A stretch of DNA of 64,000 nt from the NCBI GenBank assembly GCA_029204225.1, contig CM055102.1:30539632-30603631 (forward strand), given 5' to 3'. Made by a program: the position numbers and the translations under genes. Numbering within the stretch: the first letter of the stretch is position 1; every line of letters begins with the position of its first letter. The DNA comes from Diphasiastrum complanatum (Eukaryota; Streptophyta; Lycopodiopsida; Lycopodiales; Lycopodiaceae). A model generated the notes under the pieces. It was not told the DNA's origin and made no database searches. It was given only the letters and a program-made list of their open reading frames with translations. Below, in pieces: positions 4,416-64,000 of this stretch.

Positions 4416-4967
4416 TTGAATATGTTCAAATATAGTCTCTTGAGAGTCACAAATTACATTTGTAGAATCATATCACAAGGTTTATTTCTTATCATGGCAT
4501 CAATAGGTGGCATCCTATTGGAGGTAAGTAAGGATCCCAAATGCAACCTTTGTGGCAAGGGAGGATATTTTTTTTCAAGATGCTACAAAAAGAAGACCAA
4601 TCCATCCAAGGAAAACCAAAGAAAGCGGGCCGAGGTGAAGGATGAAGCTTCAAGTTCGAAATGCAAATACAAGAAGGCCAAATCCAAGAAAAGGTGTTTC
4701 ATTTGTGGAAAGGTGAAAGAGACTTGGAGTCTCACAAGGACTTGCAAGATTTTTCTTCAAGCGTCAATCACAATACATGTCAAATCTTTGGAAATTTTTC
4801 ATTTGGAAGTACATTGTTTGGTTCAAGATGCAAAAATAGATGTCACTTTCATGAAAGCAACTTGGATTTATTTCATGTCCTTGGAAAGTATTTTGCTTGG
4901 AACTTTAGCTAAGTTCAAACTTATTGTTATGATCCTAGAGAAATTAATCAAGAATGAGGAGCAATGA
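4416..4967 (+). pseudogene. gag remnant of element D with two zinc knuckles
   Basis: A 183-codon open frame. From residue 27 it reads MASIGGILLE, like the gag N-terminus of elements A and C, but the gag core is missing and the frame jumps to a knuckle-like CNLCGKGGYFFSRC, in which the histidine of the CCHC pattern is tyrosine. A lysine-rich linker and a second partial knuckle (CFICGK) follow. The C-terminal third resembles no family I know. Best read as an internally deleted gag. Confidence 0.55.
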
Positions 4968-4979
4968 CAAAATGGAAAT

Positions 4980-5650
4980 AGTTTCATTTATGCTCTCTTG
5001 TCAACTTATGAAGAACTATTTTGCTTTGAAGACATTTTTGTATCTCAAAGGTGGATTAAGGCAATACTAGTTGAGTGTGATGCTTTAAAAGATAGCAAAT
5101 CATGTTTCCTTGTAAACTTACATCAGATATGAAGTCAAGGAATTGGAAATGTCTTCATAATGTAGGTTCTTTTGGTTTCAATAAGATTATGAATGATATG
5201 TTTATTCATAAAGATGAAAATTGTAAGTTTTCAATTTTAAAGGCAAGATGTAAGCTTCTTATGAGAAAAAGTGAAGCATCCAAAGTGGACACTTATATCC
5301 ATAAGCAAGTAGTTAGCCTTATTGAGATGAAATTTGTTTTTGATTTCAATATTAGAAAAATCATGCCAAGTTTTGGTGATTTTTGGACATATGTTTATAG
5401 CATAAGTAATCTTGATAATCATAGAAAGTGCATATTGTATGGTCATGCTTGTTGTGATCATTATGAGACATGGAGGTCTCGGATTTCCATCAAGAAGGAG
5501 TATCATGAAGAGAATCTTAAAGAGTCATCTCAAGGTTCAAGTGTGCCAAGGATGGAGGAGAAGAGTCCTTCTCAAGGTTAAAGTGTGCCAAGGATTGAGG
5601 AGGAGAGACCTTCTCAAGTTATGATTCCAAAAAGAAACTCAAGAAACATG
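4980..5650 (+). pseudogene. scrambled Copia pol fragment of element D
   Basis: Around 5055-5125 the translation RWIKAILVECDALKD resembles the start of Copia reverse transcriptase (W..AM..E.DAL). Around 5130-5215 SRNWKCLHNVGSFGF resembles the SRSW....SFGF stretch downstream of the LKQAP motif. What lies between is lost. The open frame 5102-5581 continues into sequence I do not recognise and ends in a tandemly repeated SVPR.EE..PSQ motif that continues past a stop. No catalytic YVDD is visible. Confidence 0.45.
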
Positions 5651-6175
5651 GTTGAGCCCATGTGGCTCACATTTCAAGGGAAAGAGGAGCATATCTCATG
5701 TGATATACCCGTCATACTTAGTTCTCTTATGTCATCTGATGAATCTTCAAGGTTTGCTCAATGACGCTGGTGTTCCAAACCTTTTACTTTTTATTTTTTT
5801 TATAAAGATGGAGAAGAAGAAGAAGAGGAAGAAGAGAAAAGAATCGGTTAATGTTAGATTAATATGGATGAGAATAGAGACAGAAATGGATTTATCTAAC
5901 ATAGATGGAGATAGAAAATGGAATAGAGATGGGACATAAGAGTGATGGATGGTTGGTAACTGATATGGCGATCACTCACCAAAGAGACTTGTGCTAATAA
6001 TTTGTTTTTTCACGATCTTCTCCTTTTTTTTTTTACGATTTTTTTAAGGTTTTTTTTAGGGTCTTTTCTCTTCTTTTTGTTATTTTTTATTTTTTATTTA
6101 TTTATTTTTACGGTCTTTTTTTTTCTTTTTTTTTAAAGGGCTTCGCCCTTTTCTTTTACGTTTTTTTTTTTAAGA
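5651..6175. other. T-rich low-complexity stretch, no gene seen
   Basis: Poly-T and T-rich runs separated by short unique sequence. I see no coding signal. It may be the ruined 3' end of element D or an intergenic spacer. Confidence 0.5.
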
Positions 6176-22877: not shown

Positions 22878-23528
22878 TGTGAAAGATTCAACTAGTTTCA
22901 TCACATTTTGCAATATTTTCATAATTGGCATATTGAGGCCAAAACTTGTTTTAGACTTAGAGGTTGACTTTTCAAAGTTCATTAGTCTAAATTTCATTTG
23001 AATAGACACTTTTTTGAAAGTGTGGGAAAAATAGAATGCGAGTTTGAGTAGATTCAATTTGAATAAGTTGGGTACATTGAATCTAGACCCAAAATTGGTA
23101 GGGTTAGCATTTTGGTGAGAAAGCCAAGTGGCCAAATAGGGTTTGGACCTGCTATAAAAGGATCTAACTCGTGGAGAGAGTCATCTTTTCTCTTCTCTAT
23201 CTCATTTCATGCTTATACATGGTTCTCTTGGGTTCTACTATCCATTGGTGCACTATCTTGGTGATTGCTTGCAATTCTATGTGTAGAATGATCTATATTT
23301 GTTATTTTTGGATCCATGCATGTGAAATACAGTAGCTTGCTGGTTTTGTACGGAAATCAATAGTACATAATCATTTCATTCAAGTTTGATCAAGTTTTAT
23401 TAGTGTTTGCATCTCAAATTGTGTGTAGATGCTGATTTTTCTACATTGGTGAAATTGGTAGTGTATTTCTCTTTCTAACCAAAGATCATTCAAGTAGATT
23501 GGATCTTAAGGATCTGAAATCTTTCACA
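22878..23528 (+). repeat. 5' LTR of element A
   Basis: 651 bp, TGTGAAAG to CTTTCACA, directly followed by the primer site. A TATA-like gctataaaagg lies at 23151-23161, consistent with an LTR promoter. The palindrome of the 3' LTR (ccacacgtgtg) is degraded here to ccatgcatgtg. Confidence 0.93.
23151..23161 (+). promoter_or_regulatory. TATA-like element of the A-family LTR promoter
   Basis: gctataaaagg in the middle of the LTR. The same sequence occurs at 33961-33971 in the 3' LTR. Confidence 0.55.
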
Positions 23529-25863: not shown

Positions 25864-26182
25864 ATGTCTTCAATGGGTTCATCCTTGTTGGAACCAAGTG
25901 AAAGATTGACCACTTCAAATTATTCAATTTGGAAAATGAGGATGGAGTCCATCTTGATCCTTCAAGACGTGATGGACATAGTTCTTGGCCTTGAAGAAGA
26001 ACCACAAGTTCTTCAAGAGGTTCAAAAATACAAAAAGAGAGCTAGGATAGCTCTCCACTACATTAAGATGAATGTCTCTAATGAGATATTGAGGGAGATA
26101 GGTACTTGTACAACAGCCAAAGAAGCTTGGGATTGTCTCAAGACTATCTATGAGGCTAAGAATACCTCTAGGCTTTTTGAGA
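25864..26182 (+). pseudogene. gag N-terminal part of element B
   Basis: Starts MSSMGSSLLEPSERLTTSNY and covers the UBN2-like gag core up to YEAKNTSRL. At 26176, compared with element O (51699-51765), a net 65 bp is missing, which shifts the frame. The leader 25121-25863 is non-coding and carries two CACGTG-type sites. Confidence 0.9.
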
Positions 26183-27650
26183 GTAAAAGATATTCATAGA
26201 GAGCTTGCTTGTATTGGTGATTCCATCAATCAAAATGAGCTAGTTCAAGTCATTCTCAATGGCTTGATAAGTGAATTTGATAATCTTGTCCAATCCTATG
26301 CCATTAAGGAGGAGCTACCAAGTTTGGAGGCTCTCCAAAGTGTGCTAATTTCAGAAGAATCAAGACAAGAGTATAAGCTCTTGAGGATGGACAAGCTTTC
26401 TCTCACTCATAATGATGGCAAAGCTCTCTTTGCCAAGGATAAGCACAAAGAGAGGAGCAAGAACGAACATCAACAATCCTCAAGCAAGGACAAAGTCAAA
26501 TCCAAAAACAAAGATGAGGAGGAAGATGATTCCTCTAATGCTTCATCATCCAAGCTCAAGAAGAAGAAGAAGATCAAGTGCTTTTATTGTGGCAAGAAAG
26601 GTCATTATGCCACCAATTGCTTCAAAAAGAAGAATCAACTCAAGCAAGCCAATATTATCAATGAGAAGGAAGACACTATTGCAAGTGATGGAGAGGGATC
26701 TCTTATGGTCTCTAGTTTCTCATCTACTCCTTTCAAGAAGGACGGCCTATGGTATATTGATAGTGGAGCCTCTTCACATATGTGTAGCTCCAAGGACTCT
26801 TTCTCTTCTATTGCACCTTATGATGGAGTGAAGAAATCAATATACACTGCAGATAATTTTGAATGTCCTATTGAAGGCATAGGGAACATTCCCTTGAAGC
26901 TTGCATCCTCTAATGTTCTTTCTCTCTCTAGAGTTCTTTATGTACCTAAGCTTACCAAGAATCTTATTAGTGTTGGCCAATTGCTTGATAATGGCCTTGA
27001 TGTAAAATTCAATGTTGATACTTGTACTATCAAGAAGAATGATGAGATACTTGCATTAGGATCTAGATTTGGTGGCATCTATAAACTAGATCCAAATGAG
27101 TATGTGAATGTTTGTAATGTTGCTCTTGTGAACAAGCTCTCTATGGAAGAATTATGGCATAGGAGGTTGGGACATCCCAACTACAAATCCATGCTCTCTA
27201 TGATCAAAGAATCCAAAGCTATTGGCTTGCCAAAGTCATTCTCCAAGAAGATCAAGCCTTGTGAGGCTTGTGCTATTGCTAAATCTCACAAAAAGCCATT
27301 TACAAGATCTTCTATCAAAAGCAAGCATCCTTTGGAGTTAATCCACTCGGATGTGCATTTCTCATCAACTACAAGCAAGGGAGGAGCCACTTGTTTTGTT
27401 ACTTTCATTGATGATTACACAAGATTCACTTGGATATATCTTCTTGCTTCAAAATCTATGGTGTTTGATCATTTCCTTATTTTCAAAGCTTATGTAGAGA
27501 AGCAATTCTCATTCAAGATTAAAGCTCTTAGAAGTGATGGAGGTGGTGAATATATCTCCAATAAATTTCAAGATTTTTGTGAGCTTGAAGGCATTAAAAG
27601 AGAGTTTTCTTGTGCCTACTCTCCATCTCAAAATGGAGTGGCCGGAGAAA
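26183..27650 (+). pseudogene. gag C-terminus, protease and integrase core of element B
   Basis: Continuing in the shifted frame: gag end, knuckle CFYCGKKGHYATNC (about 26579), protease WYIDSGASSHM (about 26751) with intact DSGA, pre-integrase LWHRRLGHPN and CEACAIAKSH, integrase HSDVHF and RSDGGGEY. The frame fails at about 27642 in the NGVAERKN motif: one base is missing, giving NGVAGERI, which removes the correct context of the third catalytic acid. Confidence 0.92.
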
Positions 27651-29106
27651 GAATAGATCTCTATGTGAATGTGCAAAATCTATGAGAATTGAGGCATCTT
27701 TGCCCAAAGATTTTTGGGGAGAAGCCATTAATTGTGCAAATTATCTTTGCAATAGGCTCCCACATATAGCTCTTGGAGGAAAGTCACCATATGAAATCTT
27801 ATTTTTGAAGAAGCCTAAGGTTGATCACCTTAGAGTTTTTGGATGCTTATGCTTTGTCCATATTCCCTTGGAAACAAGGAAGAAGGAAGATCCTAGTGCA
27901 TGCAAAGGGATCATGGTTGGATACTCATCCACCAAGAAGGCCTATAGAGTCTTTATACTCTCTACTTCTCAAGTTATTGAAAGTAGAGATGTTGTCTTTC
28001 ATGAAGATCAACACTCATCATTTGAAGAGGCCGAGATCAAGAAATCTATGGATGCATCATCAATTATTGATTTTGAAGACAATCATGATGTGATGGGGTC
28101 GAGATTTGAAGAAGACTCTCCTCGGATTTTTTCACCAAGAAGATCCATGAGAGATAGATCCGAGCCTAAGAGGCTCTCATATGTTGACAAAGGCAAACAA
28201 GTGGATCTTGATTCCACTAATTATGTTTTTTATGTCTCTCATGAAAAGCCAAAGAATGTACAAGAGGCACTCAATACCAAGGAGTGGTATGATGCCATGA
28301 AGCAAGAGTATGATGCATTGATCACCAACAATACTTGGGAGCTTGTGGATCCTCCTTCCAACAAGCATGTGATTGGTTGCAAGTGGGTATTTCGGATCAA
28401 GTTCAATCATGATGGCACCATCAACAAGCATAAAGCAAGATTATGTGCCAAAGGATTTGTTCAAATCCATGGTCTTGATTATGAGGAGACCTTTGCACCC
28501 GTTGCAAAGATGGTGACAATAAGAATTCTTATTTCTCTTGCTTGTTTTTTCAAGTGGAAGGTGTTTCAATTAGATGTATCCAATGCTTTTCTAAATGGTT
28601 ATCTTGAGGAGGAGATCTATATGGAACAACCTCAAGGATTCATCAAGGATGAGTCCAAAGTGTGTTTGCTCTTCAAAAGTCTTTATGGACTCAAACAAGC
28701 ACCAAGATCATGGTATTCAAGACTTAACTCTTTCCTTATCTCACTAGGATTTACTCTTAGTGACTATGATCCTTCCATGTATCTAAAGTTTGTTGATAGC
28801 AATATTGTCATTCTTCTAATTTATGTTGATGACATTATTCTTTGTGGAAGTTGTATGAAGCTAGTTGATGAAACCAAGCTAGCACTTGGATGTGAGTTTA
28901 AAATGCAAGATCTAGGAGAGATACATTACATCCTAGGCCTAGAAATTGATTTTTATGAAAATCATGTCTCTATATGCCAATCTAGATATGCTTACTCTAT
29001 GTTAAAAAAATTCCATATGAAAAATTCTAAGAGCATAGATACTCCAATGGAGCAAATTGTAAAAGATCCTAATAAAGGTGATGAAAGATCCTTTGAGGAT
29101 CCTTGA
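27650..29106 (+). pseudogene. integrase C-terminus and reverse transcriptase of element B
   Basis: One long frame with LCNRLPHIALGGKSPYEILF, GYSSTKKAYRV, the reverse transcriptase start [59 protein letters not shown] and the catalytic LIYVDDIILCG. It ends in TGA at 29104-29106, where about 40 bp present in element O (ITLYRSLIGSLIW) are missing. Confidence 0.93.
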
Positions 29107-29751
29107 TTTGGCTTACCATTACTAGGCTCGATCTTAGTTTTTGTGTGCACAAATTGAGTCAATTTATGCAAGAACCTAAGATCCATCATTGGAAGATGGC
29201 CAAGAGGATTTTAAGATATGTATCTTCATCTTGTGATTATGGTCTACTCTATAAAAGTGAAGATCTATCCATTATTGGCTACTCGGATTCGGACTTTGCA
29301 AGTGACAAAATGGATCGAAAGTCTATTAGTGCATACACTATCTTTTTTGGAGGCAATCTAATATCTTGGCTTTCCAAAAAGCAAGATACTATATCTCTCT
29401 CTTCATGTGAGACCGAGTACAAAGCACTCACTACAACTACCAAAGAAGTGCTTTGGATCAAGAGGTTATTAATGGAACTAAAGTGCATCAAGGAGGATGA
29501 TCTACCAATGATCAAGTGTGATAACATCTCGGCCCAAGCTCTTGCCAATAATCTCATATTTCATGCAAGAAGCAAGCACATAGAAGTGGCACACCATTTT
29601 GTGAGAGAAAAGCTTATTGGAAGAGAAATCTATTTGGAGCATGTCAACTCGACCTCTTGTATTGCCGATCTACTCACCAAGCCAAGAGCAAAAGTGCTTT
29701 CATCAAGCATAGATCTAATCTTGGAGTTATATCAAGATCAATGCTCAAATC
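29107..29751 (+). pseudogene. RNase H of element B
   Basis: IWLTITRLDLSFCVHKLSQF through YSDSDFASDKMDRKSISAY, WLSKKQDTISLSSCETEYKAL and HARSKHIEVAHHFVREK. The last codons are shifted near 29685 (compare O), so the reading frame runs on into the LTR instead of ending before it. Confidence 0.9.
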
Positions 29752-30488
29752 TTCAAAGAATTGAAAAAGATTATCTATGTTAGATATAGGGGTCTTATGT
29801 TTTTTACATCAAGCATCTAGGTGTAGGATGTTGATAGGAATAAATTTGGCATAGATGGCAAATTATGCATTTCCACTTGTAATGCCACTATTGAGCCAAA
29901 ATAGAGTAAGAGGCTAAACACTTGCTAATTAGAGTGTAGACAAGTGTAAAGTTTTTGTTTGATGAATTCCAAGAGGTCCAATAGGATATAGAGGTGGAAC
30001 CTTGTGAAGTCCAATAGGAAATTGAGGTGTGCTTAAATATAGTCCAATAGAATTAAGAGGTGCATAGATCAATGATCCAATAGGATCAAGAGGTGACAAA
30101 ATGTGGTCCAATCATAGTTAAGCATAGTGGTAGCTCGTGGACCTACTAGTATCATTGTACTCCTCATTTTGAAATCAATTGATTTGGTGATTTCATGGAT
30201 TTTGTGAGTTATTGGATTTCTAGCTTTCTCTCTCTACCCGAGAGCGCTTGATGCATTTTCTCTCTCTACCCGAGGAGAGCAGCTTGTTTTTACTTAGATT
30301 ATTTTTTGAATACTTCTCACACGTGTGAGTGAGAGTTGGAAGTGATTGAATGCATGTAGTAGTGTGTTTTTGCCATAGGATTCAAGATTGATCTTGAATC
30401 TCAATCTAGACTTGATCTTGGTGCATCTACACACCTTAGGAGATCACAAGTACATGTAGTGGATAGTCCACACGTGTGAAAATCAACA
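29752..30488 (+). repeat. 3' LTR of element B, without a recognisable purine tract
   Basis: Aligns end to end with the 5' LTR except its first seven bases (ttcaaag against tgtgaag). The purine tract and about 30 bp that precede the LTR in element O (ending aggaggag) are absent. The 14-bp palindrome ctcacacgtgtgag is at 30315-30328 and a second CACACGTGTG is near the end. Confidence 0.9.
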
Positions 30489-42731: not shown

Positions 42732-43640
42732 ATGGCAACTCTAAGCAAGAGTGTCCTCAATGAGTCAAGCAAATTGGAAGGAGCCGGCAACTATGCAGTT
42801 TAAAAATTCAAACTGAACAACATTTTGATAGAAAATGAGCTATGGGAGATCGTGACAGGTGAAGAGACAAGGCCATTGATTGAAGAAGATCAACAGGCAT
42901 TTGACAGGAGAAAACGGAAAGCACAAAATGTCATCACCTTATCAGTTAGAGATGCAATTATTCCCTACATTTCGGATTCAGAAGGACCACAAGAAGCATG
43001 GGATACATTGAAGGCACTGTTTGAGACCACAAATACATCTCGAGTGCTATTCCTGAAGACGAAGCTGCACACATTGCGGATGGATGATGGTGCAACTGTT
43101 GCTGATCACCTACTGAAGATCAAAGAGATTCGTGATCAATTAGCAGCAGTTGGAGAGCGAGTACAAGATTGAAAGATCGTGCAGTTGACATTGAATAGTT
43201 TGAGTAAGTCACATCAGATGTTTGTGACAAGTATAGCCACACAAGAAAATGTTCCAACCTATGAAGAGTTAGGTGGATTGCTTTTGCAGGAAGAACAACG
43301 TCAAGAGAACTTGAGTCATCGCAACAGGGGATTTGATCAAGCTCTTGCAGTCAGGGGACGTGGTGGTAGATTTGGTCATGGAAGATACCAATCAAGAGGT
43401 GGAAACTCAAATCGTGGATCATTCCAACAATTTCAAGAACAATCCAATGATGGCCCAAATTGAGGCAATTGGAATCAAGGCCGAGGTCAAGGAGCGGCTA
43501 TTTGTGGCAAAATAAATCTGGAAATTGTAGGTATTGCAACAAACCTGGCCACTGGGAGCGTGAATGCTTCAAGAAACAAAAGGAGATGGAACAAAGAAAA
43601 GACAAAGGACAAGTGAGAAATAATGCTGATTAACATCAAT
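42732..43640 (+). pseudogene. Copia gag of element F
   Basis: MATLSKSVLNESSKLEGAGNYAV, then TAA at about 42801 where tryptophan is expected, NELWEIVTGEETRPL, KLHTLRMDDGATV, TGA at about 43171, an RG-rich segment (RGRGGRFGHGRYQSRGG) and TGA at 43461. A frame change near 43505 precedes the CCHC knuckle CRYCNKPGHWEREC (about 43531-43572). All three stops sit where relatives are likely to have tryptophan. Confidence 0.85.
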
Positions 43641-44364
43641 TTGATGACTATTATTATGAAAACAATTATACTGATCAACATCAATACGATGATGATCAAT
43701 ATGAAGATGATACAGGTGAGAGCTCAAAATTGTTCATTACAGCATTAATGACAAGTGATGAAACCAAGGATACCTGGTACATTGATAGTGGTGCATCCAA
43801 GCACATGACTTCAAGGAAAGAGTGGTGTTCAAAACTCAAAGAAACTCACAATGGTGATAAAGTTGGACAAGCTGATGGCAAACTGCTATCTGTTAAAGGA
43901 GTTGGAGTGGTACCAGTGAAGTTAGCTAGCGGGAAGATAAAGTAGATAAGCAATGTGCAATATGTACCTGGCTTAGCTAACAATCTATTATCTGTTGGGA
44001 CGATGGCTGATCAACAACTCAAGGGTGAGTTGACAGTGACAAATGTCTTGTCAAAGACATCAAGAATCACTACAAAGTGGTTACTACAAGAGCTAGAATC
44101 AACGGGAATCGACTCTACAAATTGAATGCGAGATCTTTTGCTCAAGCTATGGTAAGCACGGTTGATAGTCAAAGTGATCTTTGGCATCAACGATTCGGTC
44201 ATATTAGTGCTCAAAGTTTACAGATTCTCAAAAGAGGTAATCTAGTTATAGGATTGTCTGATATTTCTTTTGAAGGAAAAATTTGTGAAGGTTGCATTTT
44301 GGGAAAACAACACACAAAGAGAGGTTTTCCAAAAGTGCAGCAAGGAGAGCCAGTGGCATCCTAG
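43640..44364 (+). pseudogene. protease and pre-integrase of element F
   Basis: A DDYYYENNY-type tyrosine/aspartate-rich linker, protease TWYIDSGASKHMTS with intact DSGA (43772-43813), VPVKLASGKIK, then TAG, YVPGLANNLLSVG, a frame change near 44050, and pre-integrase DLWHQRFGHISAQSL with CEGCILGKQH. Confidence 0.88.
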
Positions 44365-45353
44365 ATCTTGTCCACAGTGATCTATGTGGACCTATGCAGA
44401 CTAGATCTCTTAGTGGCTACTATTAATTTATCACCTTCATTGATGATTATAGCAGATGCATTTGGATTTATTTCATAAGCAAGAAATCAAATGCTTTTGC
44501 TAAGTTCAGGGAATTCAAGACATTAGTTGAAAAACAAACAGGATGTTGCATCAAAACTTTGAGATCCGATGGAGGTGGTGAGTATTTTCTGACAAAATTT
44601 ATTGATTTTTGCAAAGATCAAGGGACCAAGAGGCAGACTACAACACCTTATTCACCGCAGCAAAATGGAGTTGCAGAACGAAAGAACAGATCTATTGTTG
44701 AGATGGCTAGGGTGATGCTCAAAAGCAAGGGTCTACCAAACACCTTTTGGGCAGAAGCTTGTAGCCCAGCTACGCACATCTTGAATCGGTGTTCTACAAA
44801 ATCCGTGGAAGGTAAGACACCCTATGAAGTTGTTACTAGAAAGAAACCTAATATTTCTCATTTGAGAGTATTTGGTTGTGATGCTTATGCTCATATTCCT
44901 GATGAGAAACGAAGGAAATTGGATGCAAAGGCTATCAGGTGTATTTTCCTTGGATATGATGAGAAGGCCAAGGCATACAGGATGTAGGACACAAATGCAC
45001 AGAAGCTTGTAATTTCTAGAAATGCTACGTTTGACGAGATGGGCCAAGGTGAACAATCTGAAGTAATCATTGAACCTTTTGATGAGGGAGCGAAAGTACA
45101 AGTCAAGAAGGAAGTTGATTTTGATATAGAAAATCCATTGGACAAAGGCAAGCCTGATGCTGAAATTCCCAAGAGAGTACCTAAATGGTACTTATCAGTC
45201 ACAGATGGTGCAAAGAAGGGAGATACTCCTGAATCTAGTGAGCAGGGAGAGCTTAGAAAATTAAGTAAAAATCGAAAACCTCCACACAAGATTAGAGAGG
45301 AATCTAGCCCTAATGGGTTCTGTGCTCAAGGCTCAAGAACCAAAATTTTTTGA
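44365..45353 (+). pseudogene. integrase of element F
   Basis: Catalytic segments VHSDLCGP (about 44373), RSDGGGEYF (44562) and NGVAERKNR (about 44661) are present, although TAA near 44425 and other breaks interrupt the frame. The C-terminus runs through THILNRCSTKSVEGKTPYE, LRVFGCDAYAH and FLGYDEKAKAYRM to TAG at 44985, then an acidic linker to 45353. Confidence 0.88.
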
Positions 45354-45915
45354 TAAAGCAAAGGAACACGAGGAGTGGCGTGAAGCTATGGAAACATAAA
45401 TAGAAGCTATATCAAAAAAATAGGACTTGGAACTTGGTTGAGCTACCTGATGGTAAGATGCCTATCACTTGCAAATGGATATACAAGATCAAATATGGAG
45501 CTGATGGGCAACTCAACAAATACAAAGCACGGTTGGTTGCGAGAGGATTTGAGCAGCAGGAAGGGAGAAAGCACCTTGTTTGTAAGCTCAACAAAGCTAT
45601 TTATGGATTGAAGCAAGCACCACGGACGTGGTACTCTTGCATTGATGAACACTTTCAGCGAAGGGGAATGGTAAAGAGTGATGCTGATCCTAATCTTTAC
45701 ATTCTAAGGCAAGATTCAGATATAGTGTTCATTGTGTTGTACGTGGATGATTTGATTATTATAGGAAGTAATGAGAACTTAATTGATGAAATCAAATCAG
45801 ATCTTTCCAATGCTTTTGACATGAGCGATCTAGGATTGATGCACTATTGTCTTGGCATTGAAGTATGGCAAAAGGAAAATGTGATTTTTCTTACACAAAG
45901 CAAATATGCATGAGA
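45354..45915 (+). pseudogene. reverse transcriptase of element F with an internal deletion
   Basis: HEEWREAME and TWLVELPDGKMPITCKWIYKIKY start the domain. At about 45565 ARGFEQQEG is joined directly to RKHLVCKLNKAIYGLKQAPRTWYS, so the segment with the first catalytic aspartate (LDVxxAFLNG) is missing, roughly 70-80 codons. The second motif LYVDDLIIIGS is intact. The frame ends in TGA at 45911. A reverse transcriptase without the first motif cannot be active. Confidence 0.88.
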
Positions 45916-46640
45916 TTTGCTTTATAAGTTCAATATGTAGGATTATAAGCCTTTGAATACACCTATGGATGTCAATACGAAGCTTACTGCATATGATAAA
46001 TCTGAGAAAGTGGATGCTTATTTGTATAGACAGCTGGTGGGTAGTTTGATTTATTTGACACACACACGACCTGATATTTCTTATGTTGTTGGTGTTGTTA
46101 GTCAATTTATGCAAGATCCTAGTCAAACACACTAGAAGTCTGCTAAACGTATTCTCAGATACATTCGAAGGACATTGAATTTTGGTTTGAAGTATGATCA
46201 ACCTGAAGTGCCAATATTGATATGATATACAAATGCTGATTGGGCAGGTAATATTGATGACATAAGGTCTACCAGTGGTCATACATTTAGTTATGGTACA
46301 GCTGTAGTTTCATGGAGCAGCAAAAAGCAACCTACAGTAGTCTTATCCTCGACGGAAGCTGAATATCGAGCACTCAGCAATGCTGCACAAGAAGCGGTAT
46401 GGTTACAAAGATTGCTTGTGGATTTAGGTCAACCACAAGTGGATGCAACCACTATATCTTGCAACAATCAAAGCTGCATTCACCTTGCCAAAAATCCAGC
46501 TTTACATGCTCAAACCAAGCACATTGAAATACGTTATCATTTTGTTCGAGAGAAATTTTTTGATGGAGCCATTGATCTTGTTTTCTGTAAATCTGAAAAT
46601 CAAGTGGCAGATATTTTTACAGTCATTAGGTAGATGTAAA
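45916..46640 (+). pseudogene. RNase H of element F
   Basis: TPMDVNTKL, YRQLVGSLIYLTHTRPDISYVVGVVSQFMQ, AVSWSSKKQPTVVLSSTEAEYRAL and HAQTKHIEIRYHFVREK. Stops at 45938, 46133 and 46222 and a frameshift near 46618, just before the ADIFTKSLG-like end. Confidence 0.88.
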
Positions 46641-51384: not shown

Positions 51385-51965
51385 ATGACTTCAATGAGTG
51401 TCTTTCTATTAGAAGCAAATGAAAGATTGACAACCTCTAGTTACTCAATTTGGAAGATGAGAATGGAATCTGTCTTAATACTACAAGATGTGATGGATAT
51501 TGTACTTGGCATTGAAGAAGAACCACAAAAATTCCTCAAGAAATTCCAAAGTACAAAAAGAGAGCCAGGATGGCTCTGCACTATATTAAGATGAATGTCT
51601 CAAATGACATCTTAAGAGAAATTGGTGCTTGTACTAATGCCAAAGATGCTTGGGATACTCTCAAGTCTATCTATGAGGCAAAGAATACTTCTAGACTTCT
51701 AACACTAAAAAACCAAATTTTTCAAAGTATACAGAGAAGTGATGAATGTGCTTCAGCTTATATAATGAGAGTTAAAGACCTCCATAGAGAATTGTCATGC
51801 GTAGGAGACTCCATCAACCAAAATGAACTTGTTCAAGTCATACTTAAAGGGTTAAAGGAGGAATATGACAACCTTGTTCAGAGTTATGCCATTAAGGAGG
51901 AGCTACCAAGTTTGGAAGCACTCCAAAGTGTGCTCATTTCTGAAGAATGAGTATAAACTCTTGAA
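51385..51965 (+). pseudogene. gag of element O
   Basis: MTSMSVFLLEANERLTTSSY, WKMRMESVLILQDVMDIVLG, then a frameshift near 51535, KMNVSNDILREIGACTNAKD, YEAKNTSRLLTLKNQIFQS and LPSLEALQSVLISEE. Here 8 bp present in B are missing (about 51946) and the frame shifts again. Confidence 0.9.
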
Positions 51966-54465
51966 AATGGAGAGACTGTCTCTCAACATTGATGGTAAAG
52001 CTCTTTTTACCAAAGACAAGCACAAGACAAGAAGTAAGAATCAACACCAATCCTCTTCAAGCAAGAACAATCTTATTTCCAAGGAGAAAGGAGATGAGGA
52101 TGAGTCCTCTCAAGCTTCCACATCCAAGAAGAAGAAGAAAAACATCAAGTGTTTCTTTTGTGGCAAGAAGGGACACTATGCCACCAATTGCTTCAAGAAG
52201 AAGAGTCAATTCAAGCAAGCCAACATTTCTAATGAAGAGAAGGAAGATGCTCATGCAAGTGGTGGAGAGGGATCTCTTATGGTTTTGAGTTTTTCGTCAT
52301 CACCTTTCGAGAAGGACGGTTCATGGTATATCAACAGTGGAGCTTCCTCACATATGTGTAGCTCCAAGCATTCTTTTTCATCCATGTCACCTTATGAAGG
52401 AGCCAAGAAGTCCATCTACACAACAAATGATCATGAGTGTGCTATTGAAGGCATAGGGACCATTCCCTTAAAGCTTTCTTCATCAAAAATTCTTTCTCTA
52501 TCTAATGTACTTTTTGTTCCCAAGTTAATAAAAAATCTTATTAGTGTTGGGCAATTGTTTGATAGTGGACTAGATGTGAATTTCAATGTTGATACATGTA
52601 CAATCAAGAAGCATGATGAGATCCTTGCATTTGGGTCTAGATATGGTGGAATCTACATGCTTGATCCCAAAGAGTATGCTAACTCTTGTGATAGTGCTTT
52701 TGCTACTCATATGTCTTTGGAGGAACTATGGCATAGAAGGTTGGGACATCCTGACTATAACTCTATGGTGTCCATGGTCAAGAAAGCCAAAGCTGTTGGC
52801 TTGCCTAATCTTATCTCCAAGAATTTCAAGCCATGTGAGGCTTGTGCCATATCTAAATCTCATAAGAAGCCTTTTTCAAAGTCATCTATCAAGACTACAC
52901 ATCCATTGGAGCTCATACACTCGGATGTGCACTTCTCATCTTCAAAGAGCAAGGGTGATGCTACTTTCTTTGTAACTTTCATTGATGATTTCACTAGATT
53001 AACTTGGGTATATCTTCTAGCTTCAAAATCTATGGTGTTTGACTTTTTCCTAAAGTTCAAAGCTCTAGTTGAGAAGCAATTTTCTTACAAAATCAAGATT
53101 CTTAGAAGTGATGGAAGTGCTGAGTACACTTCCAGTAGATTTCATGATTATTGTGAGCTTGAAGGCATTAAAACGGAGTTTTCTTGTGCATGTACACCAT
53201 CTCAAAATGGGGTGGCTAAAAGAAAGAATAGAACACTGTGTGAATGTGCCAAAACCATCAGGAATGAGACATCCTTGCCAAAAGACTTTTGGGATGAGGC
53301 TATCAATTGTTCAAACTATCTTTGCAATAGACTCCCTCATATTGCACTTGGAGGAAAGTCACCATATGAAGTACTCTATTTGAAGAAACCTAAGGTTGAA
53401 CACCTTAGAGTATTTGGATGCATACGCTTTGTCCATATTCCCTTGGAAACGAAAAAGAAGGATGATCCTTGTGCAAGCAAAGGAGTAATGGTTGGATATT
53501 CATCCAACAAGAAAGCCTATCGAATCTACATGCTCTCTACCTCTAAAGTAATTGATAGTAGAGATGTAGTTTTTCATGAAGAAGAAAAGTCCAATCTTGA
53601 AGGGGTCGAGATCAAGCAACCTCAAAATCTATCACCTATTGTTATTGAAGACAATCAACATATGGAGGAGTCAAGATTTGAAGATGGAAGTCCTCGGATT
53701 TTCACTCCTAGAAGATCCATGAGGGAGAGATCCGAGCCCAAGAGGCTCACTTATGATGACAAAGGAAAACAAGTGGATCTTGATTCCACTTATGCTTATT
53801 TTGTTTCTCATGAGGAGCCCAAAGATGTTCAAGAAGCCCTCAATACCAAGGAGTGGTATGAGGCCATGAAGATTGAATATGATGCCTTGATCACCAACCA
53901 CACATGGGAACTAGTGGATCCACCACCTAACATGCATATCATTGGATGCAAGTGGGTGTTCAAGATCAAGTACAATCATAATGGCTCCATCAACAAGTAC
54001 AAGGCAAGACTATGTGCTAAAGGCTTTGCACAAATATATGGCCTTGACTATGAAGAAACCTTTGTCCTTGTAACAAAGATGGTGACAATAAGAATCATAA
54101 TCTCTCTTGTCTTATTTTTTAAGTGGAAACTATTTCAACTTGATGTCTCCAACGCTTTTTTGAATGGCTATCTTGAGGAGGAGATATACATGGAACAGCC
54201 TCAAGGATTTATCAAGGATAAATCTAAGGTGTGTTTGCTATTTACAAGTTTTTATGGCTTAAAGAAAGCACCTAGATCATCGTATTCAAGACTCAACAAC
54301 TTTCTACTTTCATTAGGATTTGTGCTTAGTGACTATGATCCTTCTATGTACTTAAAGTTTGATGGTAGTAATATTGTCATTCTTCTAATCTATGTAGATG
54401 ACATTATTCTTAGTGGAAGTTGTTTGATGCTAGTTCAAGAAACCAAAGATGCATTAGGAAGATAA
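51966..54465 (+). pseudogene. gag end, protease, integrase and reverse transcriptase of element O
   Basis: One 833-codon stretch. Knuckle CFFCGKKGHYATNC; protease WYINSGASSHM, with the catalytic aspartate changed to asparagine; pre-integrase LWHRRLGHPD and CEACAISKSH; integrase HSDVHF, RSDGSAEY and NGVAKRKN, with the third catalytic glutamate changed to lysine; reverse transcriptase [25 protein letters not shown] and LIYVDDIILSG. It ends in TAA at 54463-54465, where B has a glutamate codon. Confidence 0.92.
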
Positions 54466-55356
54466 TTTAAAATGCAAGATCTAGGAGAGATCCATTACAT
54501 TTTAGGCCTTGAGATTGATTTTCATGAAGAGTATGCTTTTATTTGTCAATCTAGATATGTCTTTTCTATGTTGAGAAAATCCAATATGCAAAATTGTAAA
54601 GGCATAGATACTCCCATGGAGCAACATGTAAAAGATCCTATTAAAGGTGATGAAAGATCCTTCAAGGACATCACACTTTATAGGAGTCTTATAGGCTCTT
54701 TAATTTGGCTTACTATCACTAGACCCGATTTGAGCTATTGTGTGCACAAATTGAGTCAATTTATGCAAGATCCTAAGATCCAACATTGGAAGATGGCCAA
54801 GAGAGTTCTAAGATATGTATCTTCTACTCAAGATTATGGTCTATTGTACAAGAATGAAGATCTAACCATTGTTGGCTATTCGGATTCCGATTTTGCAAGT
54901 GATAAAATGGATCGAAAGTCCATTAATGCATATACTATCTTTCTTGGAGGCAATCTTCTGTCTTGGCTTTCAAAGAAGCAAGATACCATATCTCTATCTT
55001 CTTGTGAGGCCGAGTACAAAGCACTCACTACAACAACTAAAGAGGTGCTTTGGATCAAGAGGTTAATCATGGAGCTAAAGTGCATCAAAGAGGATGATCT
55101 TTCCTTGATCAAATGTGACAATATATCGGCACAAGCTCTTGCAAACAATCCTATTTTTCATGCAAGAAGCAAGCATATAGAAGTGGCACACCATTTTGTA
55201 AGGGAAAAGCTCATTGGAGGTGAAATCAACTTAGAACATGTCAACACATCTTCGTGTATTGCTGATCTTCTCACAAAGCCAGTTTGCAAAAGTGCCTTCT
55301 CAAAGCATAGGTCTAATCTTGGTCTTATCTCAAGATCAATGCTTGATCCACATTAG
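54466..55356 (+). pseudogene. reverse transcriptase end and RNase H of element O
   Basis: MQDLGEIHYILGLEIDF, LYRSLIGSLIWLTITRPDLSY, YSDSDFASDKMDRKSINAY, WLSKKQDTISLSSCEAEYKAL and HARSKHIEVAHHFVREK, ending at a natural stop after SKHRSNLGLISRSMLDPH. The only part of O still in one clean frame to its proper end. Confidence 0.92.
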
Positions 55357-55988: not shown

Positions 55989-56161
55989 AATGCCTTATTA
56001 AGATCAATGAATATCGATGGGAGGAAGTTATCCCACTAGGTCTCTATACCCATGATATACTCCAAGTTCCGAGTGTAAGTTGCTGCCGTGCGGACTGTTG
56101 GGTCAGGACAATTGAAATATTCATAAATTTTTTTTTGTTGAGAGCCCTTTGTGTTAAAAAT

Positions 56162-57091
<930 letters not shown>

Positions 57092-58155
57092 ACATAAGGC
57101 ATACCATGCTTTGAAGGCTACTAACATCAGGTGTTTGAAGAATTCTGTGACAATTCAAGCTAGGAAGTTGTTTAGCATTGTTTTGCTATCTATTCTTGAA
57201 CAGGATTTTGGCGAATGAGGTAAGAACTGATTTTTGAAACCAGAATACTTCATTTGACTCTATTTCCTTTGTGCTAGATCCAAAGATACTGACATTATAG
57301 CTTCTTGAAAGGTAGAAGAACCCTCTTTCCATTGCAATTGGTTTCAATTCATTCTGATGAACCTAGTAGAAGTTATAAGCTCTTAAATAAGGGTAGGGAG
57401 AGACCCAAAACCTAAGTGGACACTTTTTGAAATGATAACATTGCATGCATGATTCATCATTCACAATTTTTGGTAATCAATCTGAGATAGAATTAGATAA
57501 GTCAAGATTATGTTGTCATAGTCACATCATTTCACACAAAGGGTTGTGTTTGAGTTGAATGTGTGTTTCTAAAGTGTTTTTCATTCATTTGAAACTCGTG
57601 GTAAAATTTGACATCAGAATTGTAAGTGCTTCATCAGAAGATAGAGGCTAGATTCAAATTCAAAGTGATTGATTTTCTGTTTAAGCAATGACTCACATAA
57701 CTGTTGCAAGTTTTTGCATAGGATTTGGTAGAATACCCAATTGGTTTTGGTCCCTATTGTCAAAGAAAAACAACACATCAAATCCATTTATTGTGTATAT
57801 CAATTCAACAAACTCGAGATCTAGACAAAATTTTGAGTCATGTAACACATTGTTTCATACAATTTGAGAGTATATGAGTCAATAGTGTTGTCTTTAAGCA
57901 TTTCACACATGCCAAAAGAAGAAAGTTCCAAAATTTGTCTATACTTCAATTCAAGTTGAGAGGTTGATCTAGTTTGTCTTATTTTGGTGGAATATTTGAG
58001 ACCTATCTCAAATGCAGTTGCAAGATTTTTCATAGGATTTGGTAGTACACCCAATTGTTTTGGTTCCTATTGTAAAAAAGGAGCAGCACAGTCAATTCCT
58101 ATAGTTAAAAGTATTCAATTACATAGTTGTCCAATTACAAAGAGTCTTTACATAC
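57092..58155 (+). repeat. Copia leader with a ~320-bp-spaced duplication
   Basis: cataggatttggtag followed by acccaatt-gttttggt occurs at about 57717 and 58031, with similar flanking sequence (caagtttttgc, caagatttttc). The same phrase appears in the leaders of B and O shortly before gag, so this is the leader of fragment P. Confidence 0.65.
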
Positions 58156-59239
58156 ATGGCATCTGTAGGAGATTTTCTCTTTGAAACTAGTGAGAGACTA
58201 AATACCTTCAACTATTCAGTTCGGAAGGATAGAATAGAATCTTTGTTGGTTCTATATGGTGTAATGGACATAGTATTAGGAATTGAAGTTGAACCCGAAG
58301 CTTATGATGAGGCTCAGAGATTCAAGAAGAGAGCAAGGATTGCTCTTCATATCATCAAATTGAACATCTCTGATGAGATGTTGAGAGAAATAAGTTCATG
58401 TACCTCAGTCAAGCAGACTTGGGAAACCATTAAGAACAATTTTGAAGCAAAGATCACATGAAGACTACTTACTTTTAGAAATCAAATTTTTTCTAGTTTC
58501 CAAAGAGTTGATGAAAATGCTTCAAGTTAAAGATCTTCACAGAGAGATAACATACATAGGAGATACTCTAGAGATTAGTCAACTTGTTCAAGTAGTCCTT
58601 AATGGACTTAGAGAAGAGTATCAAATGTTGTGCAAACTTATGCTATCAAGGAGGAGCTAAAGATCTTCACAGAGAGATAGCATGCATAGGAGATACTATG
58701 TATGAGAGTTAAAGATCTTCACAGAGAGACAGCATGCATAGGAGATACTCTAGAGAACAGTCAACTTGTTCAAGTAGTCCTTAATGGACTTAGAGAAGAG
58801 TATGCAAATGTTGTGCAAACTTATGCTATCAAGGAGGAGCTACCATCTATGGAGGCTCTATATGATATTATTATTGCTGAAGAATGCAGGCAAAAGAACA
58901 AGCTGTCGAAGATCAACACACTTTCAAGGAAGGATGGCGGTTATGGCAAAGCTCACTTTTCCAAGGACAAGTCAAGAGGGAGGAGCAAGAACAAATTTTT
59001 TCAAGCCTTCACCAAGGACAAATCAAAGGACAAAGCAAAGGACAAAGACCAAGGAGGAGTAGAAGATGATTCAACTCATTCTTCTATCTTCAAGAAGAAG
59101 ACTCAAGAAGATCAAGCCAATTTTAGTACCATAGAAGATTCACGTGCAAGTTGTGGAGAGGCATCTCTCATGATGTCTAGCTTCTCCTCTTTATCCTTTA
59201 ATAATATATCTTGGTATATTGATAGTGGTGCATCATCAC
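58156..59239 (+). pseudogene. rearranged Copia gag and protease start (fragment P)
   Basis: MASVGDFLFETSERLNTFNY and KRARIALHIIKLNISDEMLREI to TGA at 58459. Then a segment beginning aaagatcttcacagagaga is present three times (58529, 58659, 58711). The third copy continues in frame (LVQVVLNGLREEYANVVQTY, KEELPSMEAL), a lysine/aspartate-rich linker and the protease start SWYIDSGASS. The zinc knuckle is missing. At about 59239 the sequence switches to antisense gypsy DNA. Confidence 0.85.
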
Positions 59240-59760
59240 TAGTTGGTCTCCTCGCCCTTTGGCATACATCACATTTCCTCAGGTATTCCTCTGTATCCTT
59301 ATGAATTGTTGGCCACCAGCATCTTGATTGTAGGATCTTGCGGTTAATTTCGCTAATCTGCCTTTGGTAATGATTTGTCTGGTTGGCCCCGCATTAGATA
59401 TTCGACTATGTCAGCGACCCATTCCGGTACTATGTCAACATAAAATAAGGCAGCATCGAGTAGCTCATCATCAGGTTGGGTTGCATTTTCCTTTCCCTTA
59501 AATTGTGACACATGACCTACCATGTAGTGTTGTTTTCCCTTGCGAACCACTATCCGAAAATCAAACTCCAACAACGGAAGTAACCATCTAGTGATTTTCT
59601 CTGTGTTGCAAGTTTTGTTAACAAGATAGATCAAGGGCTGATGATCCGTAAAAAAAGACAAAGTGTGTGGCCATCAGATAGTGAGAAAATTTCTTAACTG
59701 CATATATCATTGCCAGTGCTTTCTGTGGTTGAATAATTCATTTTTGTATCACTGAGCTGT
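59240..59760 (-). pseudogene. gypsy RNase H and integrase zinc-binding fragment
   Basis: On the minus strand FFTDHQPLIYLVNKT, ITRWLLPLLEFDF and VRKGKQHYMVGHVSQ are the Ty3 RNase H end, and near 59330-59245 WWPTIHKDTEEYLRKCDVCQ is the H2C2 integrase zinc motif. The frame is open from 59661 to 59353. Different from elements H and Q as far as can be compared. Confidence 0.85.
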
Positions 59761-59854
59761 TGGCTTGCAAATTGGATATTTTGCATTGATTTAAGATTTA
59801 AGATTGGGGGGAGGGAGGAAGTTTGTATGTGTTGTTTTGCATTTTGAATTTTAG

Positions 59855-60031
<177 letters not shown>

Positions 60032-60050
60032 TATTTTGATTAAGATTTAG

Positions 60051-62170
60051 GCTTGGCTGGTGATAAGGAAATTAGAGAGTCCCTTGGCATGTGTTTAGAC
60101 AACAAGGGATTTCGCAAATTCATGGGCAAAGAGACATTTTGGTGGCACTTGACAAAGGCAGCCAAAAGTATGTTGGCTCCATTGGCTGCTGGCCTAGAGC
60201 AGCTACCAGATGAGGATGCATATTTTAGGCGGCAGCGCCAAATGCATTTTAAACTAGAATTTGGCAACTTGGAAAAGGAGATGAAAAATGCAAATCCTGC
60301 AAGCAAACAGCCAGGCCTACCACATGCGGCAAGACGAATTGCATACAGGTATATACATTTTGAATGCCCATCTTTTTTGTTTTTTACATATGCTCAGTGT
60401 CACAAATGGGGCTTTTCTATGTTGTAGGTGGCTGATCTCATTGAAGGACGAGCGTATTATTGACAAGATCCCTTATAAAGTTTATGACTGGCTATCCTTT
60501 GAGAGCATGCCCACTGTGTACCCCACAGATTGGCAGGAGATTGGCCTCACACAATGGGAGCTTACTAGATGCCCTTGGTGGCTTGACTACCCTAAAGGGG
60601 TTATTCCTGCTTCCGAGGAGGACATGCATGCATCATTCTAGAAGACAGTTCTCCATCACCCCACATCCCAGGATGCTCCTGCACAAGGCTCTACATTGAG
60701 AAGGAAATCAACCGCTCGTAACATTTCGGAGTCCTCACGGTCAAGAAGGAGACTACAATTGCATGTGGAGGACCCACATGAAGAGCAAGTCATGGATATT
60801 GAATCACCACCAGCCCATACAAGTGTCCAAGCAGCTCCCAACTACATTGCAAGTTTGTTTCCCATGCTATCAATACTTTCTGTTGGTCAAATATACTCAT
60901 AATATAATTGCATGCATAGACAAGGTGCTAGACAATGACTATTTGTACTGCTTGAACACTTTGTTTTTTATTTTTAATGTAGATTTGCCTAGTGGACCTG
61001 GATCAATGTGCGCAGTTCTTGGTGATGTGGTCACCATGGCCGATGAAAAAACAAAATCTATGCGGAAAATAAAAAGACTTTTGAGCGCTCATTGTATTGC
61101 TAGATCATATGTTTGGGGAGTGCCATGTGAGGTTGTGGCAAAGTTGGTGTTTGTCAACTTTCCCACTTCACTTGGTGTAGCCTTCATCCAGGAAAAATCC
61201 ATGCCCGAGTGGAATGTTTTCTCCTAGTCATTGCCCACGACATGCGCCACTATTGATGATTTGTACATTGTCGACGAGGGATGGTATGTGACACTATCTA
61301 TCACAGAACATTTTCCTTGGATTTTTATAGCAGCTGCTGAGAAGGGCTTCACCCTACACCAGTGCTTAAACGTTGTTGTGAAGAATGGGTACATTGGTCA
61401 CGCACCATTCAATAAGGTATGATCTCTTAAATGCCTTGTTAATTGTCTGCCACTATATCTAACTAACAATAATCCTTACCATCTATCAACCCAAATTGAT
61501 TCTTTTTTTTATGTGCAGATAGCATCACTCGTGTTGTCACTCTTTCACCGTGATGGATATCCCAAGCCTACACTTCACAACAAAAGGGCCAGAAAGAATT
61601 ACACCACTGGCATACCCGAACCAGACACAAATTTCATCATTGACACTCCCGATACGTACAACGCAATAGACGATAACTTTTGCAGGGGTGGTGCATAGCG
61701 GTCCCCTGAATTATGCAGGTTCATTGTCATCACTTCTATTTTTTTGAATGGAATCATCAATCCAATGTGTCTTGCACTATCGCATACATATAAGCTGAAC
61801 TTGTTCTCTTGCTGCATTGTAGATATATTATAAATCTCACAAATGAGGAGGATCTAGTTATCGATTTATTTGCCGGTACCGGTAATCTGGGAGTCGAGGC
61901 TGTTCGGTCGAACAGACACTGTGTGTGTCTAGAGAAAGATGAAGCTATGCATGAGCATTTTCTATCCAAACTCGAAGAGAGATGGACGACAAGTTGGAAT
62001 CAAGTGCTTGAGTTTATAGCAAGTCTTGAAAATAATTGTCCATTCTTGTGCAATCATCCATTCATGTGCAATTGAACTCTCTAATTTGTACATGTTTGAC
62101 TTTGCACAGGGCGCAACAACAAACACATGAAGATGTGAGGTGTAATATTTTCGGCCACAATATTATTTAG
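60051..62170 (+). pseudogene. spliced gene for a beta-class DNA amino-methyltransferase-like protein, three in-frame TAG codons
   Basis: Six exons fit GT-AG rules and matching phases: 60051-60348, 60428-60852, 60983-61416, 61519-61718, 61823-62011 and 62110-62170 (TAG end). Introns are 79, 130, 102, 104 and 98 bp. The joined frame is about 535 codons. The N-terminal half (KGFRKFMGKETFWWHLTKAA, WLISLKDERIIDKIPYKVYD) and a basic linker are unfamiliar. The C-terminal half has MPEWNVF (possible degenerate motif IV), DEGWYVTLSITEHFPWIFIA, VVVKNGYIGHAPFN, RSPELCRYI and DLFAGTGNLGVEA, the FxGxG SAM motif I. Motif IV before motif I is the beta-class order of bacterial N4-cytosine/N6-adenine methyltransferases (N6_N4_Mtase type). 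It is not MT-A70-like, as there is no DPPW. TAG codons at 60639, 61225 and 61696 interrupt it. No start codon or promoter was found; the 5' end is cut off or lies beyond the GA tract. Confidence 0.72.
61823..62011 (+). other. SAM-binding motif I exon of the methyltransferase-like gene
   Basis: Encodes YIINLTNEEDLVIDLFAGTG followed by NLGVEAVRSNRHCVCLEKDE. The glycine-rich loop F-A-G-T-G binds S-adenosylmethionine, and the acidic residue of CLEKDE fits the ribose-binding position after the second strand. The preceding RSPELCR resembles the KP-ELL segment before motif I in bacterial enzymes. Clean open frame. Confidence 0.75.
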
Positions 62171-64000
62171 TGCGATAGTTTTCCCTTATGACATCCCTAG
62201 TCCTTCGCATTCTAGAATGTGATCTCAAACAATTTTTTTTTTTTTTTGATTTAGTAGAATGAACCGGGTCGACATTGCAAAACAAAGTTAACATGAGCTT
62301 ATTTTGAAGAGTTCTTATTCTTGATGTATTGAATGTACTTCTTTTTTGGAAACCAAGCACATTCTGAGTAGACCTATCTACTCTACTGAAATGTACGGTG
62401 GGTATTTTGCCATGAACCTAAACTCATTGAACCATATAGAAGATGGTTTGCCAAAAATGTTTAGAAATGTACTTGTTTGTAACATGTTTTTTATGCGCCC
62501 CACTATGATCGTTCGAAAATGTACTTGTAACACGTCCTTGCCCTTTTTACCCACGTTTTGAAGCTCATAAACGCCTTCTTTGTGTTCATGAATTTGTGTT
62601 TAGGGTTGATAGGTTTTAAATCCTCTTTCAATAAAGCCAAGCTTGAAAGTATCAAAAAGCTTTCTATGTTGCTTCTCTCATTCCTTATATTGATTCAACT
62701 CACCCTAGCCAGAAAACAACCGTGTTCAATAAGAAAGCATTTATTATCGGCACTTGAGAGTGTGTGAAGCTGGCAAATCTAGCAAGATTTTATAATTACA
62801 CCCTTCATTGCACTTTCTAGCTCTTGAATTATCGGTTTAAGTTTCTACTTACAGTGCATAAATGATATAATATGTCAGAGCTAATGTGTAACTACTTATG
62901 GGTTTGCATTGTTGAAGCAAATTAAGTTTAGAACATTTTAGAAAACAAAGTTCTTGGCATGACCTTGTATCTTCTGTTTTGACATATTCAAGTAGCATGA
63001 AATGGTAGAGATTACCCTGCTGTGCATGCAATCACTGGCACTCTCTGACAAACTAGACCTTTTGTTCCTTTGCCCCTTGATTTGTTTCACTTTTCACATC
63101 TCAACATTCAGTTTTTTGATAAGGAAAATAGATGTAGCATGAAATACAAGCTGTTATGGCAAGTCTTTGGAAGATTACCATGCACTAGCTTGGTGATTTC
63201 TGATTGAGCGTGAAAATCCTTTGTTCCAATGTTTCCAAAAATAATGAAAAATAATGAGAATAGAGTCATATAGAAACGTTAAGGTCCTAACTCCAATTTT
63301 ATGAATTGGGGGTAGACCACACGGCATTGATGGATCATCTTCACACGGCCTCTCAAGGATCACCACGTTTTTACTTTTGGTAATAAGTAGTCTTTAATTT
63401 TTCAGTGACTCTGTTATACCCAAAACAATAAATTTGACCTCAATTTGACCAACTTCCTACATTATCGGTTGAGGTGTATGTGACAAGTTAACATGGAAGG
63501 TAGACTAATCTAAGGTTGTCTAGCTTTAGATCTCAGTTTTCATTTCAATTTAGTCATATTTTGCTTTTGACTGAGCAAGACTGTCTTTTGCCAAATTTGC
63601 TTGTAGGGCTATTTTTTTAACTGTGGAAGCATATTTTACAAATACTTATGTTTTTGTGCACAACCATTCATGATAAGCTTTAATGAGATGAATTAAAGCT
63701 TTTCAACGATCTTACACGAATATTTTTAAATAAGATTCTTTACGATCGATCGATTTGCAAGGACTGTCATGACATACGACTACAGAATATACTGACTCAA
63801 TGCACTATCAGTTTTGAATCAAGTCGCACCTCCATGAATATGGCTTCTTATTAAACATTGATCATTTGAATCCAAAATACTACTAGTGGCATGTAAAACG
63901 TCTGTCCTCTTGCCCAATTGCAGCATCCGCAACATGATTCCTGAAATGCATACTATGCAGACATTTTCGTGTATCAAATCACATTAGGAATATGACCTCC
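62171..64000. other. no gene or element recognised
   Basis: AT-rich sequence downstream of the methyltransferase-like gene. The open frames are under 75 codons and without family motifs. It could include the 3' untranslated region of that gene; no clear terminator can be called. Confidence 0.5.

Follow-up and report, generated by a model that had tools for sequence, protein, structure and literature searches.

A decayed copy of a large dispersed gene family with a putative beta-class methyltransferase-derived domain in the lycophyte Diphasiastrum complanatum

Bacterial 4mC methyltransferases were acquired independently in bdelloid rotifers and in Marchantia, according to the accounts given in three reports (PMC8885841, PMC8566409, PMC12344493). 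The bdelloid enzyme N4CMT is described as being of the permuted type, with an SPPY motif, a chromodomain, five conserved introns and an allelic pair of copies, and the Marchantia enzyme (MpDN4MT1a/b) as recently duplicated and without additional N- or C-terminal domains (both as portrayed in PMC8885841).

We analysed a 64,000-nucleotide stretch of DNA (C11:30539632-30603631, hereafter the window) from D. complanatum, a member of the Lycopodiaceae, in which the initial annotation had placed an intact spliced gene with a bacterial-type DNA amino-methyltransferase domain. The locus is a pseudogene, and this copy itself yields no methyltransferase. Most probably it represents a dead copy, truncated at its 5' end, of an intron-bearing D. 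complanatum family that is large and dispersed and whose ancestral C-terminal domain derives from the beta class. No description of a lycophyte family of such methyltransferase-like repeats was found in searches of open-licence papers; the family is real and large, and apparently undescribed.

Gene structure and decay of the window copy

The six-exon splice model was reproducible in silico. The five introns all have GT-AG borders and consistent phases from 60044 to the TGA at 62136-62138, as the initial annotation had stated. Exon 1 is open from 60044, the frame closes at this TGA in the last exon, and 530 codons precede it when three in-frame TAG codons are counted in. The frame earlier put at about 535 codons is truncated and is interrupted by the three TAG. 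Plant-type splicing was supported. The exon 2/3 and 3/4 joins in an annotated D. complanatum protein (P0001) equal the predicted borders, and in divergent relatives the exon ends match, with GT or AG adjoining, at several borders but not at all of them. In copy L028, the donors of introns 1 and 3 lack GT. The peptides GYIGHAPFN, RSPELC and DLFAGTGNLGVEA, the last carried by exon 5, are all present in the spliced frame. Positions are given in Table 1.

Table 1. Features of the family copy in the window (positions of the whole stretch).
Feature	Positions	Strand	Remarks
Exon 1, 5'-truncated	60053..60348	+	homology with 13 of 19 copies starts at 60052/60053
Intron 1	60349..60427	+	79 nt, GT-AG
Exon 2	60428..60852	+	in-frame TAG 60639-60641
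Intron 2	60853..60982	+	130 nt, GT-AG
Exon 3, start of methyltransferase-like domain	60983..61416	+	in-frame TAG 61225-61227
NFPTS at motif IV position	61156..61170	+	aligned to phage DPPY(G)
GYIGHAPFN	61387..61413	+	not aligned with motif IV
Intron 3	61417..61518	+	102 nt, GT-AG
Exon 4	61519..61718	+	in-frame TAG 61696-61698; motif X-like RSPELC 61699-61716
Intron 4	61719..61822	+	104 nt, GT-AG
Exon 5	61823..62022	+	above PF01555 cut-off
DLFAGTGN, AdoMet-binding motif I (FxGxG-type)	61863..61886	+	Pfam match, alignments
Intron 5	62023..62109	+	87 nt, GT-AG
Exon 6 with terminal TGA	62110..62138	+	weakest part of the model
Downstream repeat portion, no recognised gene	62139..64000	+	common to L016 (to 63935) and L024

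The downstream portion is matched by L024 in two pieces, which reach the end of the window. Just 5' of the truncated copy lies a long (GA)n tract (59858-60027). By eye, frames resembling Ty3-type RNase H/integrase remnants were seen at 59112-59673 on the minus strand, and long Ty1/copia-like gag-pol frames at 26102-29780, 42804-46630 and 51516-55353 on the plus strand and at 20063-22887 on the minus strand. No tRNA and no RNA family above the gathering score was found in the window. A twin of window positions 56000-64000 (L014, C11:47006820-47016800) is located 16 Mb away on the same chromosome, with an identity of 99.5-99.8% over 8 kb.

We compared the left edge of the window copy with 19 fetched copies, the twin being set aside. 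Homology starts at 60052 or 60053 in 13 of them and farther inside in the other six. Twelve of these 13 share upstream sequence within their own subfamily, a count that includes two near-duplicate pairs; L030 does not. The window copy and its 99.8% twin both lose homology at this point while other copies continue into upstream exons, indicating that the left edge is not the gene start. Upstream exons were read in L015, L022, L031 and L039, so the full protein is longer than 530 residues. A WDGNHR segment in these exons, conserved among the four copies together with the exon that follows, has what we take, by eye, to be a resemblance to ParB/sulfiredoxin-like domains. The ParB-like reading was not confirmed: Pfam, NCBIfam and PHROGs gave no match except DUF6261 at E=0.07.

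The three TAG codons, overlooked by the initial annotation, and the missing 5' end contradict an intact gene, as the copy has no uninterrupted reading frame. Besides the twin, only L031 also has a stop at the first position (60639), no other copy has one at the second (61225), and one other copy, L016, has one at the third (61696); copies gapped at a position were not counted, and the others mostly have sense codons. We also scored private changes of the window copy, defined as those opposed by all aligned copies of its subfamily, A (four or more). C>T or G>A accounted for 26 of the 40. The CpG observed/expected ratio was 0.07 in the introns, 0.49 in the exons and 0.32 in the whole window. The excess of these changes and the CpG values fit methylated, non-functional DNA. 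A frameshift relative to the window was present in 14 of 18 other copies, whereas the window copy holds a single frame through all exons despite its three stops, so its decay is mild. One frameshift near 61999 recurs in four copies of subfamily B and another sits at the terminal stop; these may be real differences in the gene end.

Given that the internal stops are all TAG, with no TAA or TGA, we considered whether readthrough or editing of TAG could let the window copy still give a full protein. In other copies, however, TGA and TAA also occur as stops, and there are frameshifts. Among the aligned copies of subfamily A, only the window copy and its twin have two of the three TAG stops, and the bias of the private changes is that expected of methylated dead DNA. 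We attach next to no credence to readthrough. An intact expressed plant gene for a horizontally acquired bacterial-type N4-cytosine/N6-adenine DNA methyltransferase agrees with the intron phases and with the PF01555 match given below, and comparable acquisitions are described in the accounts of bdelloid rotifers and Marchantia (PMC8885841, PMC8566409, PMC12344493). This explanation is nevertheless very improbable in view of the three stops, the missing 5' exons, the neutral divergence from close relatives, and the absence of SPPY, DPPY, NPPY and DPPW from the window copy.

The methyltransferase-like domain

Exon 5 scored 30.9 bits against PF01555 (N6_N4_Mtase), over the curated cut-off of 26.7 (E=3.3e-7), and exons 3-6 scored 30.7 bits. 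The profile search that the initial annotation had proposed therefore came out in favour of the assignment. Distant members of the family fell under the cut-off (L034, 23.5 bits; L039, 16.8 bits). There was no MT-A70 among the Pfam matches to E=1, in agreement with the contrast to plant MT-A70 proteins drawn initially.

The motif order was determined with MAFFT and HHalign from six family members and four phage enzymes; one of the five phage proteins fetched, L004, was excluded from the alignments. Both methods placed LVF.(D/N)FPTS on MVMADPPY, N-terminal to motif I. The HHalign probability was 95.9% over 236 columns, spanning from before motif IV to past motif I, when the alignment was allowed to extend, and an earlier local profile alignment with fewer members covered the last 54 columns only. 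The match of PHROG 498 to exons 3-6 begins at residue 95, i.e., after motif IV. The homology of exon 3 to methyltransferases is thus drawn from a deliberately extended profile alignment and a PHROG match that starts past motif IV. Within these sequence alignments, the beta-class order proposed initially was upheld. GYIGHAPFN, part of the initial motif evidence, does not align with motif IV, whose position is that of NFPTS. The order of IV then I points to a beta-class arrangement, without the beta-class catalytic signature. On these grounds, the C-terminal domain is judged to be related to permuted (beta-class) bacterial amino-methyltransferases.

Profiles were also searched against solved structures. 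A seven-member profile found DpnA at E=1.7e-4; M.PvuII (0.041), CcrM (0.17) and M.RsrI (1.8) were not significant, and all of these matches span the motif X-I end only. With a profile of three sequences, no methyltransferase was retrieved from the PDB, and exon 5 alone reached M.PvuII at just E=0.048. AlphaFold, run on P0001 and three other rows, gave a pLDDT of 29, and the model was discarded.

Five of the seven aligned members have DFPTS as motif IV, whereas L040 has DFTTS and the window copy NFPTS. The canonical (D/N/S)PP(Y/F/W) was found in none of the seven; therefore, catalysis cannot be assumed, and the working N4C/N6A enzyme implied by the initial annotation is not borne out. Variants of motif I were DLFSATGN (L037), DLFAGTRN (L040) and DLFAGTCN (L036).

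All seven members have lost the first proline and the aromatic residue from motif IV, which suits a pseudo-enzyme, in which the AdoMet-binding fold is kept, catalysis is lost and the domain serves as a DNA- or protein-binding module. Within (D/N)F(P/T)TS, the residues F, T and S do not vary, which suggests another, conserved use. On the other side, motif I is recognisable in most of the seven members, some related families (Trm5/TYW2) work with an NLP-type motif IV, and L034 has a PF02475 match, which is below the cut-off (25.4 vs 28 bits). We hold the pseudo-enzyme to be quite possible, somewhat short of probable. In the account that we prefer for the family, its functional ancestors would have encoded a long protein with a C-terminal part from permuted (beta-class) bacterial amino-methyltransferases. 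The protein of functional lineages would bind AdoMet via DLFAGTGN and act on nucleic acid, and its domain may be either a methyltransferase whose catalytic loop has changed or a non-catalytic relative. A stronger proposal is an undescribed class of plant mobile element or element-like gene, amplified to hundreds of places, whose protein would be an amino-methyltransferase of bacterial origin with DFPTS as a novel catalytic motif and would place 4mC or 6mA on the DNA of the element itself or of the host. We consider this proposal unlikely. If it were true, such marking could evade or steer silencing.

Copy number, divergence and spread of the family

The D. complanatum assembly (1.74 Gb, 5176 contigs) was searched for further copies. 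The DNA search gave at least 47 matching places (40 of 72 candidates scored). The protein searches with exon 5 and exon 3 each gave at least 150 places (150 scored of 330 and 303 candidates, respectively). Of the exon-3 places, 91 of 150 were followed on the same strand by an exon-5 place at a distance of 0.2-2.5 kb (median 637 bp), and none of the 150 was paired in reversed order or on opposite strands. The two lists merge into at least 206 clusters, which occupy every one of the 23 chromosomes as well as 26 other contigs. As only part of the candidates was scored, the true family is probably larger; the count may also include some loci twice, since an unplaced contig may be a second version of a chromosomal locus. 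The count of genomic copies called for at the outset thus revealed a dispersed repeat of about two hundred places. Subfamilies reach down to about 31-50% protein identity.

The matches in protein databases were six family fragments, four from D. complanatum and two from contigs. The four annotated D. complanatum proteins (O6H91_16G071400, O6H91_02G011900, O6H91_08G046000 and O6H91_Y156400) are fragments of this family, deposited as hypothetical and with the precomputed Pfam field empty in all four. P0001 reads into intron 4 and is without motif I. No prokaryotic or other named plant relative was found in the protein databases by a method that relies on shared 5-residue words and length, which makes the absence weak, and two scans of viral contigs found no relative. 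Two further duplications were observed. L034 contains a tandem 1659-bp duplication (2807-4465 and 4463-6121, 99.6% identity) that doubles exons 1-3, and L040 and L041, on C3 and C22, share a stretch of at least 4.9 kb at 99.9% identity, which looks like recent movement or duplication between chromosomes.

When the genome was searched with PF01555, there were 1605 first-look candidates, and each of the 150 that were scored exceeded the cut-off. The matches mostly cover the motif X to I part. All 150 scored places were more than 1 kb from any of the 150 exon-5 places, and the distance comparison took in only 7 of the 150 exon-3 places. These loci form another, larger and stronger-scoring set of amino-methyltransferase-like sequences. 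Some of them have open frames of more than 300 codons. L042 of this set, read from one 900-base stretch, represents a more bacterial-like branch (CPYQKPQQL...DLFSGSGTT). Loci of this set on unplaced contigs may be contamination.

Divergence was determined at codon positions 1, 2 and 3 and in introns, pooled over non-independent pairs of copies. Subfamily A comprised nine copies including the window and subfamily B six; the near-duplicates L014, L026 and L033 were excluded from the pools, and L019, L023 and L025 were kept apart. Between A and B, divergence was 18.5, 17.7 and 36.5% at the three positions and 37.2% in introns. Position 3 thus diverges like introns and positions 1 and 2 about half as much, indicating that the frames are real. 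Within A, the corresponding values were 7.2, 6.6 and 5.9%, with 5.3% in introns, and within B 7.5, 6.7 and 7.1%, with 7.5% in introns. There is purifying selection on the frames between A and B, and no constraint within either of these two young subfamilies. From the comparison of between- and within-subfamily divergence, selection maintained the frames on the long branches, and in young copies they evolve neutrally or almost neutrally. For L037 vs L038, of a third subfamily, the values were 7.4, 6.9 and 9.1%, with 8.4% outside exons. L019 differed from A by 13.2, 8.9 and 10.5% (introns 7.7%), and L025 by 13.7, 13.2 and 17.0% (introns 17.6%), a weak excess at position 3.

Such a selection pattern characterises a mobile element, or a gene from which dead copies are repeatedly shed. 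Dispersed copies, selected branches between subfamilies and neutral copies, which are the marks of an element, were all found, and a repeatedly duplicated host gene gives the same pattern. We also inspected by eye the points where homology breaks. Among 19 copies, each covered for at most 10 kb, no end was common to all and no target duplication was seen. Common ends were restricted to pairs (L029/L032 on both sides; L027/L028 and L037/L038 on the right, where the pairwise match stops). Between 60030 and 64000, there was no notable inverted repeat, only short imperfect ones of 14-22 nt. The initial suggestion that the gene is carried by a mobile element was reasonable, as the sequence is a dispersed repeat, but no element was delimited.

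The want of a common end can be explained if the family is not mobile and if segmental duplication and LTR-retrotransposon capture passively multiplied one or a few host genes, most copies of which then died. By eye, the identical left junction of L029 and L032 adjoins copia pol-like sequence and L037 is located between copia pol pieces, and the pairs window/L014 and L040/L041 are large, near-identical duplications. However, at least 206 places, with divergent subfamilies and on all 23 chromosomes, are much for passive spread, and copia is so abundant here that adjacency may be chance. Passive copying is a real contender, to which we give a little less than half our belief. Based on copy number, age range and selection pattern, we lean to an element-like family over passive host-gene amplification, which is nearly as likely. 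In the element-like account, the family would spread like a mobile element, with a few selected functional lineages shedding decaying copies. The introns were kept, which argues for copying at the DNA level. We infer mobility from copy number and evolution only.

Significance and comparison with known systems

Bacterial-type 4mC enzymes in eukaryotes, in the reports as described above, are single or two-copy acquisitions; here, about two hundred places of a single divergent branch were found in a vascular plant. Were even one lineage active, lycophytes would offer a setting in which to ask whether plants use 4mC or 6mA and whether a DNA-modifying enzyme can be spread by a repeat family. If no lineage is active, the conserved DFPTS would exemplify a methyltransferase fold retained for a different role. 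In genome annotation, loci of this type could be mistaken for functional DNA methylases.

Several known systems resemble the family in part. DIRS-like retrotransposons are repeats with a Dam-like methylase, from a different methylase family, and with a reverse transcriptase and a tyrosine recombinase. The phage DNA methylases or methyltransferases of mEp021, HMSP1-Susan, snusmum6-1 and Vibrio 1.030.O align with the family by HHalign (95.9%, 236 columns) with ADFP on ADPP. These phage proteins have DPPY or DLPY, and their pairwise similarity to the family is weak (best tblastn E 0.02). The PF01555 enzymes (DpnA, M.PvuII and CcrM) are alike in the motif X/I region and in the order of IV before I. 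They have (D/N/S)PP(Y/F/W) at motif IV, whereas the D. complanatum family has (D/N)F(P/T)TS and adds eukaryotic introns, a high copy number and a long N-terminal part without a recognised domain. N4CMT and MpDN4MT1a/b, as described, share with the family a bacterial-type amino-methyltransferase domain in a eukaryote. Unlike these enzymes in their published descriptions, the family has (D/N)FPTS and occupies about two hundred places, many of them broken, and the SPPY reported for N4CMT is absent from the window copy.
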